This document shows, piece after piece, positions 53,488-58,017 of a DNA stretch of 64,000 nt. The DNA comes from Methanoculleus sp. 7T (GTDB lineage Archaea > Halobacteriota > Methanomicrobia > Methanomicrobiales > Methanoculleaceae): positions 1,426,001 to 1,490,000 of the forward strand of contig NZ_JALPRP010000001.1 of the NCBI RefSeq assembly GCF_023195915.1, read 5' to 3'. The notes below the pieces were generated by a model. That model worked only from the letters and a program-made list of their open reading frames with translations. It had not been told where the DNA came from and searched no databases. Positions within the stretch are counted from its first letter, which is position 1; every line of letters starts with the position of its first letter. A program made the translations under genes and the position numbers.

Positions 53488-53979
53488 ATGGCAGAAGGCA
53501 GGCTCAAGATTGTCGTGTTCGGTTCGTTCAACGCAGGCAAGTCCAGTTTCATTCAAGCACTCGACCCCCGGAGCCGCCATATTGAGGCGACCTCAAAAGA
53601 GAGCGAGGGGGCCACGACCGTTGCCTTCGATTTCGGCAGGCTGCAGGTGGGAGACCAAGCGGTCTACCTCTTCGGGACGCCCGGGCAGGAGCGGTTCGAA
53701 TTCGTGCGGCAGATCCTCTCGCGGGGCATGGACGGTGCGATCATCGTCGTGGACGCCACCACGGGCGTGGATGCGATGACGAGGCACCTCTACGGCCAGT
53801 TGAAGGCCCTCGAGGTGCCGCTCGTCTTCATGGCGAACAAGTGCGACCGCCCCGGCGCCGAGCCCGACACCATCCGCCGGGATATGCCGGGGGAGACGGT
53901 GCACCCTATCTCTGCGCAGAATGGGGAGAACGTCCGTGCGGCACTGGATGCCTTCGTCGCGACCCTGGTTGCCAGGTAG
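53488..53979 (+). CDS. Small Ras-like GTPase (MglA/COG2229 type)
   Basis: A 163-residue GTP-binding protein: G1 GSFNAGKSSF (about 12-21), G3 FGTPGQERFEFVR (with Thr in place of the Asp of DTPG, typical of COG2229), G4 ANKCD, G5 SAQNG. Relatives act as polarity or regulatory switches, often with roadblock proteins, which are not seen nearby. The following gene encodes a helical-repeat protein and may be a partner (inference from position). Confidence 0.88.
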   Translation: MAEGRLKIVVFGSFNAGKSSFIQALDPRSRHIEATSKESEGATTVAFDFGRLQVGDQAVYLFGTPGQERFEFVRQILSRGMDGAIIVVDATTGVDAMTRHLYGQLKALEVPLVFMANKCDRPGAEPDTIRRDMPGETVHPISAQNGENVRAALDAFVATLVAR

Positions 53980-54019
53980 CGATCATTATTACTATCCGGG
54001 CGTCGTTTGATCTGGTGAG

Positions 54020-54859
54020 ATGGATACGGGAACGATGACCCGCAGAAATGCCTATATTCAGGATATCGCCCGGCAACTCTCGAAGTTCCTCGAGACCGGG
54101 AGGGCCGAGGATCTGATCGCCTGTCTGGTGGCGGAGAGCAACCTGCCGGGCCCCCGCCCCAATCATGACCTTGCCCGGGCGTTTGCCGATACCGTCAGGG
54201 AGTATGCGGCTGCCGACGAAGAAGACCGCCAGGTCCTCTGGAATCTCTGCGTCGAACTCGCCTGCGTCTCCCCTGAAGACGCACCGACGGACGACCCGCA
54301 CGAGTTCCTCTCGTTCTGCGGGGTCTGCGGCATCGCAGCGATCGGGTCGGTCGCGTCGGCATTCACCGAGATAGCGCTTGCCCAACTGCAGGAAGCCTCT
54401 CTCGACCCCCGCTGGCGGGTGAGGGAGGCGGTGGCGCTCGGGGTCCGCGAACTCCTCGCCGCCCGGCCAGAGGAGACCGTCGCCGAGTTGGAGGGGTGGG
54501 TGGAATCCGGGTCGTGGCTCCCCATGCGGGCTGCGGCCGCAGGTATCGCGGGGTCCGACCTCATGGCCGAGCCGGACTTGGCGGAAGTGGCGCTCCGGCT
54601 GCACCGCAAGATCCTCGTCCGGGTTTATACGGCAACCGAGCGGCAGTCGGAGGCATTTTTGGCCCTCCGAAAGGCGCTTGGGTATACCCTGAGCCGGGTC
54701 GTTGCGGCCCTGCCCGGGATCGGGTTTGAGTACCTCCGGCAGCTTGCAACCCTCGATGATCGGGACGTCCGGTGGATTATCAGAGAAAATCTGGAGAGGG
54801 ACGGGCTCCGGCGGCAGTACCCCGAGACGGTGCAGCACATCAGGGCGCAGTTGTCGTAG
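54020..54859 (+). CDS. Alpha-helical (HEAT/DNA-alkylation-repeat-like) protein
   Basis: This 279-residue protein is mostly helical. Segments such as DPRWRVREAVALGVRELLA (about 133-151) and DDRDVRWIIRENLERDG (about 248-264) are HEAT-like, as in DNA-alkylation-repeat or PBS-lyase proteins; the N-terminal 120 residues are less typical and carry four Cys. It starts 40 bases after the GTPase gene on the same strand. I do not recognise the orthologue. A scaffold or glycosylase-like function is possible but not shown. Confidence 0.65.
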   Translation: MDTGTMTRRNAYIQDIARQLSKFLETGRAEDLIACLVAESNLPGPRPNHDLARAFADTVREYAAADEEDRQVLWNLCVELACVSPEDAPTDDPHEFLSFCGVCGIAAIGSVASAFTEIALAQLQEASLDPRWRVREAVALGVRELLAARPEETVAELEGWVESGSWLPMRAAAAGIAGSDLMAEPDLAEVALRLHRKILVRVYTATERQSEAFLALRKALGYTLSRVVAALPGIGFEYLRQLATLDDRDVRWIIRENLERDGLRRQYPETVQHIRAQLS

Positions 54860-54874
54860 AGGGTGCCCGGCCCT

Positions 54875-55618
54875 CTACTCCACAATCGCCGACGCCCTCT
54901 CGTCGAAGGGGTTTGTCCGCATCGCAAACGAGAAGAGGTAGGGATAATTCTTCTGCAGGTAGCGCATGTAGCCCAGCCACTCACGGATGAGGAGGCTGTA
55001 GATCCGTTCGAGGTCGCTTGCGAGGTGCGCCGTGTCGGCCCCGGGAAGGCCTGAGAACCCGGGCCGGCGCTGCAGTTCCTCGTTGAAGTGGAATATCGCC
55101 CGGAGCAGTTCGGTGAACGTCTCGTGCTCGAAGAGCACCGGGTTCTCCAGCAGCCGAAGGAGGAACTCCTCGCGGGACCCAAGGAACCGCTTGACTGCCT
55201 CCAAGTCGACGTTCTCTATCCTGACTCGGCAGGGATGCCGCTTCAGCCGCCTCTCTACCTCAAGGAACGTCTCGTCGGTCCAGGTCTCGGTGACTACCAG
55301 TCGCGGCCGGATCTCGTCGAGGTTGGGATCGTTGTTGGAGATGTAGGTCAGGAGCTGCGTCCCGAGCGCCGAGAAGAACGTCCCGATGACCATGTTCAGT
55401 TTCTCCATCCTCTGCCGCCGGTCGCGGGACTCCAGCACCTGATGGAAGACGAGCGTCACCAGGAGGACCTCGAGCGGGAGAAACGCGATATCACCGAGCG
55501 TATAGATGCCGATGTGGTGGAAGTCGTGGAAGATCAGGAAGTGCAGGGCGTAGAGCACGACCGAGAGCGTGATAAGCCCCGCACCGAAGGCGATCAGCCA
55601 TCGCCTGTCGTTCGTCAC
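54875..55618 (-). CDS. Membrane-anchored protein of unknown function
   Basis: A 247-residue protein with two membrane helices near the N-terminus (about 8-28 and 40-61; WLIAFGAGLITLSVVLYALH, GDIAFLPLEVLLVTLVFHQV) and a soluble helical C-terminal part (about 70-247) with VVTETWTDETFLEVERRLKR and NEELQRRPGFSGLPG. The family is not recognised with confidence. It begins 23 bases after the stop of the short TnpB-like gene on the same strand, so the two may be one transcript. Confidence 0.65.
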   Translation of the reverse strand: MTNDRRWLIAFGAGLITLSVVLYALHFLIFHDFHHIGIYTLGDIAFLPLEVLLVTLVFHQVLESRDRRQRMEKLNMVIGTFFSALGTQLLTYISNNDPNLDEIRPRLVVTETWTDETFLEVERRLKRHPCRVRIENVDLEAVKRFLGSREEFLLRLLENPVLFEHETFTELLRAIFHFNEELQRRPGFSGLPGADTAHLASDLERIYSLLIREWLGYMRYLQKNYPYLFSFAMRTNPFDERASAIVE

Positions 55619-55641
55619 ATGGACCTATACACGTTCCTGCC

Positions 55642-56217
55642 TCATGAAACCCACGTCCCGGCATCCGGCGGTGCGGACGCGATGTTGAACGCCGCGTTCG
55701 CGTCGGCATGAACGACGTAGCCGCAGTGCGGGCAGGAGAACCGTTTGCCCTTGCGGATACCCGGTTCGCCGCACCGGCTGCAACGTTGGGACGTGAACGC
55801 CGGGTTGACGTAGACGATCCGAACCCCGGCGCTCTGCGCCCGGGCCTCGACCAGTTTCTGGAGGTGATAGAACGACCCCTCACGCCGGGAAAACGGAAGA
55901 GGCGTGCTCTGCTTTGTTCGGCCCGCAAACCCTGCGCCGGAGAGGTCCTCGAACTTGATGCCGCACTCGAGTTGCCGGGCCATCTTCACGATCTCTTTTG
56001 CGATCCTCTGGTTTTGGTCTCTCCTGAAGGCCTGTTCGCGGCTCCTGTTCTTCTTACGCTTCGAGGCGCCGCCGCACCCGTCCTCCGCCTGCTCCCGCTC
56101 GCCGAGCATCACCACCCCTCCGCTCGCCGGGTGGGCGACGACGGCCGTGTAGCCGGTGGTGTTCAGGTCGACCCCGATCCAGTCGCAGGACGATGCGTTA
56201 TCCGTGGAAAACGGCAT
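55642..56217 (-). CDS. Short TnpB-like protein: RuvC nuclease core plus zinc ribbon only
   Basis: A protein of 191 residues, half the size of the smallest usual TnpB (about 350-400). All parts of the TnpB RuvC nuclease are present: Asp17 in IGVDLNTTG, Glu90 in IKFEDLSG, Asp172 in HADANAAFNI, with spacings (73 and 82) like those in TnpB, and the four-Cys zinc ribbon CSRCGEPGIRKGKRFSCPHC between Glu and the last Asp. The WED/REC part that binds guide RNA and target is absent, and only 88 bases separate it from the HAD gene upstream. GAGAAGGG precedes the start; GTG 56220 is an alternative. It could be a decayed transposon gene or a domesticated nuclease. Confidence 0.8.
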   Translation of the reverse strand: MPFSTDNASSCDWIGVDLNTTGYTAVVAHPASGGVVMLGEREQAEDGCGGASKRKKNRSREQAFRRDQNQRIAKEIVKMARQLECGIKFEDLSGAGFAGRTKQSTPLPFSRREGSFYHLQKLVEARAQSAGVRIVYVNPAFTSQRCSRCGEPGIRKGKRFSCPHCGYVVHADANAAFNIASAPPDAGTWVS

Positions 56218-56308
56218 CACCCTTCTCGCTGCAAACCTCTCTCATGGCCCTTCAGTGTATGGAAAAGACTGGTGACCGGGGCACCATATATCCATCGTGT
56301 CCGCGCTC

Positions 56309-56971
56309 TCAGACACCGTAGCGCCTCCATGCCTCCTCGACGTGCAACGCCTGCATCCCAAGCCTCCGGGGAGTGAGAATATCGTTCTCGCTGGTGTCCC
56401 CGATGAAGAGGACGGCTGGAGGCGTAAGACCCATCCGCCTGAGGGCCGTCGTGTATATCCGCGGGTCGGGCTTCTGAAAACCGAGGTCCGATGAGAAGAT
56501 GACGAAGTCGAAACGGTCGTAGAGGTTAAGCATCCGCATCTCCTGTTCCGAGAAGACCCGTTGCCCGTTCGAGACGACCCCTTTCTTCTCCGTCCCGAAG
56601 AGGTCGAGCAGCCTCCGGCTCTTCTCGATAACATCGAGACGCCGGAGAGACGCGGCCCGGAATGCCCGAGCCGCCTCGACCCCGAGCCGTTCCGCATCGA
56701 TGTCCCATGCGCTGTGTTCGGCGCAGATGCCGGCGAAGACCTCTTCGACCCGCACCTCCGGGTGCCGTCCCCCGACCCGGTCGGCCGCCTCCCGCACCCG
56801 CCGGGGGTAGCACTCCCGCAAGGATTCAGGTGGTATCCTGACGCCTTGATAGAGGAGCCACCGGGAGAGGTACCGGTAGGTCTCGATGTCGCGCTCATCG
56901 GTCAGGATGTCGATGAGCGTACCGTAGCAGTCGAAGAGGATCCCCGCTACCTCGGGGCTGCGGCGAGACAT
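56309..56971 (-). CDS. HAD-family hydrolase
   Basis: A 220-residue phosphatase of the HAD IA type: nucleophile Asp14 in LFDCYGTLID, a helical cap (about 25-100), the SNG of motif II in GVVSNGQRVF, Lys in LGFQKPDPRIY, and acidic motif IV in FIGDTSENDI. It removes phosphate from an unknown small molecule. It overlaps the end of the kinase-like gene by 25 bases, so the two are coupled; a kinase and a phosphatase acting on related substrates is possible. Confidence 0.88.
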   Translation of the reverse strand: MSRRSPEVAGILFDCYGTLIDILTDERDIETYRYLSRWLLYQGVRIPPESLRECYPRRVREAADRVGGRHPEVRVEEVFAGICAEHSAWDIDAERLGVEAARAFRAASLRRLDVIEKSRRLLDLFGTEKKGVVSNGQRVFSEQEMRMLNLYDRFDFVIFSSDLGFQKPDPRIYTTALRRMGLTPPAVLFIGDTSENDILTPRRLGMQALHVEEAWRRYGV

Positions 56972-57876
56972 GCCTCCGCCTCCCGGAGCAACCGGTCGCG
57001 CTCCGCCGCCCGCCAAGGCAGCCGGGCGATCCTGAGGTAGCCGAGCGCCATGAAGAACGGAAGATCGCGGGTATAATGCCGGAATTCCTCCTCGCCGTTG
57101 CTGTAGTGCCAGAGCAGGTGGCCGATGTAGCCCTCGGCCCGGGAATTCACCGGCGATGCCTTGATCTCTGCGGCGAGGATGCCGAGGTCGCGGATGGGGT
57201 GCGCGTGGTTCCGGGAGCCTTCGAAGTCGATAGCCCAGACGCCGTCGCCGACGAGGTAGTTTGCGGGCGTGGCGTCGCCGTGGACCATGCACCCTTCGTC
57301 CCGCCCGATTCTCGGGCTGTGCCACCACGCCCCGAGCAGGCGGTTGAACCGCTCCCTTCGGTGTTCCGGGAGCCGGTTCTGGTCGAGCACTTTATGGAAA
57401 TAAGAGAACTCGCGTGCCCGGTTGCAGGAGGTCCGCGTGTTGTCGTGGAGCCGTCGGAGCAGGTGCGCGACCCCGGTCAGGTGGTCGTAAAGGGAGGCCC
57501 TCGCCGCGATGAGTTCCCGTATGGTCGGGCCCGGGACGTAATCGGTCACGAGGACCGCATGAAACCGGCTCTTCGCCGCGAGCGCATGTGGGACGCGGAC
57601 CAAGCCGGATACGCGTCGTATCCGGTAAAACTCGTTCTTCATTGCCTTCCTAGGGTCGTAGCGGGTGTTCGCACCCGTCGGCGCGCCGAAGAATTTGCCG
57701 ATCACGCTGACTCCGCCGGCAAACTCATACCGACAGACGACGTGCGACGCGGGTTCTATCCGGTAGACCCGGACGTCGCCGTCAGGCTCCGGCAGACGGT
57801 CGGCGAGGACACCGACCAGCCAGCCCCTGAACGCATCGTGGGACTCAAGAATCCCCACTTCTCTCTCAATTTTCAC
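56947..57876 (-). CDS. Aminoglycoside-phosphotransferase-like (APH/ChoK) kinase
   Basis: The 309-residue protein has the catalytic motif MVHGDATPANYLV (about 196-208), with the Asp and Asn of the HxD-x4-N loop, and the metal motif AIDFEGSRNH (about 214-223). The N-lobe has VIGKFFG, where the Lys would bind ATP. It phosphorylates a small molecule such as a sugar, choline or amino acid; resistance to antibiotics is not implied. Downstream it overlaps the HAD gene. It is divergent from the polyprenyl synthase. Confidence 0.82.
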   Translation of the reverse strand: MKIEREVGILESHDAFRGWLVGVLADRLPEPDGDVRVYRIEPASHVVCRYEFAGGVSVIGKFFGAPTGANTRYDPRKAMKNEFYRIRRVSGLVRVPHALAAKSRFHAVLVTDYVPGPTIRELIAARASLYDHLTGVAHLLRRLHDNTRTSCNRAREFSYFHKVLDQNRLPEHRRERFNRLLGAWWHSPRIGRDEGCMVHGDATPANYLVGDGVWAIDFEGSRNHAHPIRDLGILAAEIKASPVNSRAEGYIGHLLWHYSNGEEEFRHYTRDLPFFMALGYLRIARLPWRAAERDRLLREAEACLAAAPR

Positions 57877-58017
57877 TCGGTCTCCCTATCCTCCCTCGGC
57901 ACGGGGAGGGCTCATGTGGAGCGCAGCGGTAATGAATATACCTGCGGTGGGAGATCGACCCACACCTTTTTACCGCCTGGGCATCTTAACGGGAGGCACC
58001 GGGAGTGACGGGCCGTG

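Follow-up and report, generated by a model that had tools for sequence, protein, structure and literature searches.

Can the RuvC domain of a TnpB protein function alone and, if so, what does it cut? This question is made testable by a gene in a 64,000-nucleotide stretch of Methanoculleus sp. 7T DNA (the window; the genome is G000), which encodes a stand-alone RuvC-TNB protein. To our knowledge, the domestications of TnpB that have been described, Cas12 and TldR, all keep the guide-binding part, and what is lost, if anything, is the nuclease. Recruitment of TnpB is in itself a known kind of event, and the family to which the window gene belongs reverses this pattern, in that the nuclease half alone is retained, with an omega-RNA still found in some of the relatives. 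No description of a single-origin host gene made from only the nuclease half of TnpB was found in the literature searched, and an earlier mention in a 2023 classification of TnpB proteins is possible.

The explanation that we favor, with a probability of about 0.6, is that a TnpB was domesticated once, and that this gave rise to a guide-free and likely catalytically active RuvC-TNB nuclease. Domestication of the TnpB half is the part of this explanation that is well supported by sequence comparison; the catalysis, substrate and function of the protein are what we infer.

The RuvC-TNB gene and its protein

The gene occupies positions 55642–56217 on the minus strand and encodes 191 amino acids, as supported by the open reading frame, by Pfam, NCBIfam and PDB matches, by orthologues and by an AlphaFold model. 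It starts with an ATG at 56217, with an alternative GTG at 56220 that gives 192 amino acids, and it ends with a TGA stop at 55644–55642. The RuvC triad consists of Asp17 in RuvC-I (motif WIGVDLNTTG, codon at 56167–56169), Glu90 in RuvC-II (GIKFEDL, 55948–55950) and Asp172 in RuvC-III (HADANAAFNIA, 55702–55704), and the TNB zinc ribbon, with Cys146, Cys149, Cys162 and Cys165, lies at 55723–55782, all on the minus strand. All 41 stand-alone proteins compared, which come from four families, have the triad and the four cysteines unchanged. A preliminary description of the locus, which left the strand unstated, had given the same coordinates, length, acidic residues and cysteines, and these are borne out by a new reading of the frame and by the match to PF07282. 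It had also given a gap of 23 bases to the downstream gene, which is correct, and one of 88 bases to the upstream gene, which holds only when counted from the GTG and becomes 91 bases from the ATG.

Judged by sequence, the likeness of the protein to TnpB and Cas12f is well above the chance level. The Pfam family PF07282 (Cas12f1-like_TNB) matches with E = 5e-22, the NCBIfam family guided_TnpB with E = 2e-25 and 90 bits, which is below its cut-off of 100, and a sequence search of the PDB gives Cas12f with E = 1e-17. The guided_TnpB match begins at position 259 of the 389 in the profile, and so covers the C-terminal half of TnpB. Structure prediction, proposed in the preliminary description, gives a model with a mean pLDDT of 75 and local values above 90 within the core, in which an RNase H-like core is confidently predicted and for which the top Foldseek matches are Cas12f and TnpB. 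The preliminary description was also right that the WED and REC domains are missing: 12–23 residues precede the RuvC-I Asp in the Methanoculleus copies, compared with about 135 in full-length relatives, and a structure model of one such relative has WED/REC-like elements that the window protein does not have.

With the TnpB of IS200/IS605 elements, the window protein shares the RuvC triad and the TNB zinc domain, in sequence as well as in fold, and its RuvC-III motif resembles the 'derived' TnpB type, xADxN. It differs from TnpB in that WED/REC, omega-RNA and TnpA are all lacking, and in that the gene is not multi-copy, but chromosomal and syntenic. Cas12f (type V-F) provides the top structure and sequence matches among solved structures (AsCas12f, 7wju; OsCas12f, 9nzq), but the window protein is half the size, lacks REC and WED and has no CRISPR-like repeats nearby, array-like repeats being absent from 53500–58000. 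TldR proteins are likewise TnpBs recruited to a role outside transposition, and they are nuclease-dead with the guide-binding part kept; the window protein is the opposite, since its active site is intact and its guide-binding part (WED/REC) is lost. The Holliday-junction resolvase RuvC, finally, has an RNase H-like fold (weak Foldseek matches to 7w8d and 4ld0) and a stand-alone size in common with the window protein, but it has no zinc TNB insertion, and no close sequence similarity between the two was found.

A single origin among full-length TnpBs

The preliminary description had left two readings of the short protein, domestication or the recent loss of the 5' part of an ordinary TnpB gene, and the latter is suggested by the fact that the protein is the C-terminal half of TnpB. 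Orthologues of similar length at the same locus, which it had proposed to look for in other genomes, are present in 12 other genomes among 40 of the family, i.e., in 10 other Methanoculleus species and in two species of the sister genus, with 49–71% identity and with 12–23 residues before the RuvC-I Asp in all 12. The locus is common to 11 Methanoculleus genomes, the window included, and 2 genomes of the sister genus.

Profile searches were made over the order and the phylum, with the clade defined by D(L/R)NTTGH at RuvC-I and set apart from ordinary TnpBs by a gap in the scores. The stand-alone form, mostly as a single copy, occurs in four families and in about 56 of the 232 genomes of the order, where 56 is the number of genomes with a clade match (61) minus the five with full-length proteins only, and where a few of the 56 have partial or damaged genes. 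Many stand-alone genes have an in-frame stop directly before a GTG that is located 17 codons ahead of the Asp codon. When 67 proteins are placed in one tree, the stand-alone proteins (43 of 43 rows) form one clade, with a bootstrap value of 100 and an SH-aLRT value of 99, and this clade is nested inside a group of full-length IS200/IS605 TnpBs, which places its descent in the small lineage with D(L/R)NTTGH. From the tree it follows that a single loss of the N-terminus suffices to account for all stand-alone proteins.

Database-style searches of the window genome, on which all genome-wide statements about it rest, show the gene to be single-copy and syntenic, and give two more distant TnpB-like genes and no Y1_Tnp match. 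A closely related full-length TnpB in the same genome, which the preliminary description had named as the sign of a recent 5' deletion, is absent: the nearest TnpB has 41% identity over just 74 residues. The same short N-terminus in dozens of species and several genera, the stop directly upstream of the GTG start in many orthologues and the lack of a close full-length copy make recent truncation extremely improbable; it is rejected, and of the two readings it is domestication that stands. Orthologous position, vertical descent and purifying selection are the marks of a domesticated transposon gene, and all three are found here.

Two stand-alone genes, L120:112-837 (-) and L122:6856-7611 (-), have no ATG, GTG or TTG at the expected start; the sole candidate is a GTG lying a single codon upstream of the catalytic Asp, and a rare start codon is possible.

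Omega-RNA in full-length and stand-alone genes

Full-length members of the clade are mostly about 320–370 amino acids long, they are multi-copy in some genomes and they occur also on viral contigs. In genome G065, there is a Y1 TnpA directly upstream of each of four full-length copies, and these copies are therefore canonical IS200/IS605 elements. Full-length genes have a conserved 3' element, GGGAGCACTGATACCCC...AACCCCACG-TTTAG-CGTGGGAGTATGTCAG. When it is folded, 25 of its 32 pairs show two-sided covariation, and we read it as an omega-RNA that is followed, past GTCAG, by the right end of the transposon. Members on four IMG/VR viral contigs (L153–L156) have the same 3' element. In the loci searched, the window locus and those of full-length TnpBs included, no Rfam family reached its gathering score. 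Small full-length TnpBs with D(L/R)NTTGH and a strongly covarying omega-RNA at the 3' end are found at L133:2800-3860, L134:2526-3576 and L127:3230-4189, and on the viral contigs.

From the 23-base gap downstream of the window gene, it had been concluded that a guide RNA would not fit. The gap does not warrant this conclusion, because the omega-RNAs of TnpBs overlap the 3' end of the open reading frame. The RNA-free reading itself gains support for the window copy: a covariance model detected no related omega-RNA in the window gene or in the whole genome, and none in 21 of the 24 stand-alone genomes searched. In three stand-alone genes (G036, G037 and G055), the model finds the omega-RNA with E-values from 6e-17 to 2e-13. 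The RNA lies within the 3'-terminal part of the coding sequence, and its translation reads DR(D/V)ACxGSTDTP...GMSES. Each of the three genes has every pair of stems 1 and 2 intact (14 of 14 pairs), and synonymous recoding gives full stem pairing in about 0.2% of the trials for each gene (P about 0.002), which suggests selection on the RNA, within the limit set by the fact that the three genes are interrelated and descend from a structured ancestor. It is possible, if doubtful, that these three still work with the old omega-RNA scaffold, while elsewhere in the family the RNA was discarded and the protein became guide-free; if they do, there exists an RNA-associated RuvC enzyme without WED/REC, the two halves of TnpB have met different fates, and the path from an RNA-guided to an unguided nuclease can be traced.

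The persistence of omega-RNA in three relatives also speaks for the alternative that the window gene is still RNA-guided, either via a diverged or non-homologous guide RNA or with a partner that supplies the WED/REC function. The RuvC domain of ISDra2 TnpB makes many contacts with the omega-RNA (PMC10097598), and a C-terminal motif, present in most relatives, would be suited to the docking of a partner. Against this stand the failure of the RNA model to match anything in the window genome or in those 21 genomes, the absence of the WED/REC half of the family from 25 stand-alone-only genomes (profile A6) and the shortened inter-motif region in Methanoculleus, and we consider continued guidance quite unlikely. 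Two specific arrangements were tried and rejected, namely a split TnpB with WED/REC encoded elsewhere, from the negative A6 search, and an omega-RNA acting in trans, of which none was found in G000.

A role without cutting is also conceivable, and Cas12f works as an asymmetric dimer. The stand-alone protein could be a non-cutting modulator of mobile TnpBs or Cas12f-like enzymes, which shields the host from their cleavage by binding their omega-RNA or by pairing with them as a second subunit. The omega-RNA kept in G036, G037 and G055, with its intact stems, and the two more distant TnpB-like genes in the window genome are in line with such a role. A decoy could, however, do without some of the catalytic acids, all three of which are unchanged across 41 proteins, and the window genome has no RNA of the related TnpB family to titrate; this makes a modulator unlikely.

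Selection, erosion and loss

The pairwise dN/dS of stand-alone genes is 0.10–0.33, and the codon-model omega is 0.18–0.21, compared with 0.13–0.20 for neighbor genes. The ratio, called for in the preliminary description, is about 0.2 and similar to that of the neighbors, and by this measure the stand-alone gene is under purifying selection. The highest pairwise value, 0.33, is that of the window pair G000/G002.

The gene is missing without a remnant at 16 of 28 Methanoculleus loci and has an internal deletion at one (G017), and in our reading of the tree at least five losses in the genus are needed if regain is excluded. The G017 copy, L047:6837-7301 (-), is decayed, and its deletion spans RuvC-II.

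Surviving copies differ in the interval between RuvC-I and RuvC-II. All 16 full-length proteins measured have a spacing of exactly 84 from Asp to Glu, as do most stand-alone proteins; the spacing is 57–86 among the Methanoculleus copies and 73 in the window protein, where the shortened interval lies at approximately 56038–56091 on the minus strand, with low model confidence near residues 43–60. In ISDra2 TnpB, stem 1 of the omega-RNA is bound by the RuvC alpha1 and alpha2 helices (PMC10097598), and by analogy the shortened region would correspond to these helices. The link between RNA loss and spacing is not strict, because other RNA-less families have kept the spacing.

In most lineages outside Methanoculleus, the C-terminus of the protein has a short hydrophobic motif, ENLLAVLE, SFSLLF or GLFSLLD in type, which is absent from the Methanoculleus copies. 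In three stand-alone proteins (L045:7347-7535, L046:6465-6662 and L095:6793-6957), the former right end of the transposon, GTCAG or similar, immediately precedes the motif, which makes it look as though flanking DNA at the original insertion site had supplied the tail. A C-terminal extension in G006 (L038) was rejected as a tail of this kind; it extends into the following gene in antisense orientation and is unlikely to be conserved.

When the losses, the G017 deletion and the erosion of tail and inter-motif region are taken together, the Methanoculleus gene could be seen as a slowly dying relic, domesticated earlier in the order and with a role now fading in the genus. The surviving copies have the active site and an omega near 0.2, which is at odds with neutral decay and leaves the relic very unlikely. 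The repeated losses, the erosion and the dN/dS of 0.33 for G000/G002 count also against our favored explanation.

A putative guide-free nuclease

According to the favored explanation, a guide-free nuclease from a single domestication, the host gene would go back to one event early in the history of the order, in which the tnpB of an IS200/IS605 element lost the 5' part encoding WED and REC and retained the RuvC-TNB half. The protein would be a metal-dependent RuvC endonuclease without a guide of its own, with single-stranded or structured DNA or RNA as substrates that the TNB would help to hold. The ENLLAVLE-type peptide of most relatives may serve to dock a partner; Methanoculleus no longer has this peptide, and the gene would have become dispensable there. 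Partner dependence has this motif of the relatives, absent from the window copy, as its sole hint.

That the nuclease would be active and guide-free we infer from the preserved active site. In TnpB and Cas12, it is normally the guide together with the REC lobe that activates the RuvC domain, and an isolated RuvC domain could therefore be inactive or require a partner. Processing of omega-RNA by TnpB requires an intact RuvC site (PMC10278001), which means that the RuvC domain is able to act on RNA as well as on DNA, and cleavage of RNA or single-stranded DNA by a RuvC-TNB protein alone is plausible. The patchy retention of the gene fits better with an accessory role, such as clearance of foreign or aberrant nucleic acid, than with housekeeping. 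Most Methanoculleus copies are very small, with 169–202 amino acids, and have a Cas12-type active site that is intact.

The genomic neighborhood

The upstream neighbor, at 56309–56974 on the minus strand, is a HAD-family hydrolase (Pfam) which is conserved at the locus and which is not thought to be a component of the RuvC-TNB system. The downstream neighbor, at 54875–55618 on the minus strand, is a predicted membrane protein of 247 amino acids without a Pfam match. In another family, 12 loci have a homologue of it close to the stand-alone gene; it is absent beside the RuvC-TNB gene at several Methanoculleus loci and is therefore no obligate partner. Within contig limits, the order kinase, HAD, RuvC-TNB, (membrane protein), HEAT-like, GTPase is conserved in Methanoculleus and the sister genus. 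An obligate operon partner was rejected, as the neighbors vary from family to family. A defense neighborhood was rejected as well, since PADLOC gave no match for the membrane protein or for the gene at 54020–54859, and only weak LeoA/LeoBC matches for the GTPase.

The membrane protein at 54875–55618 is without the potassium-channel pore signature that its homologue in another family (G186, L126) has as TVGYGD, and this comparison of sequences suggests that the window lineage has lost the pore part.
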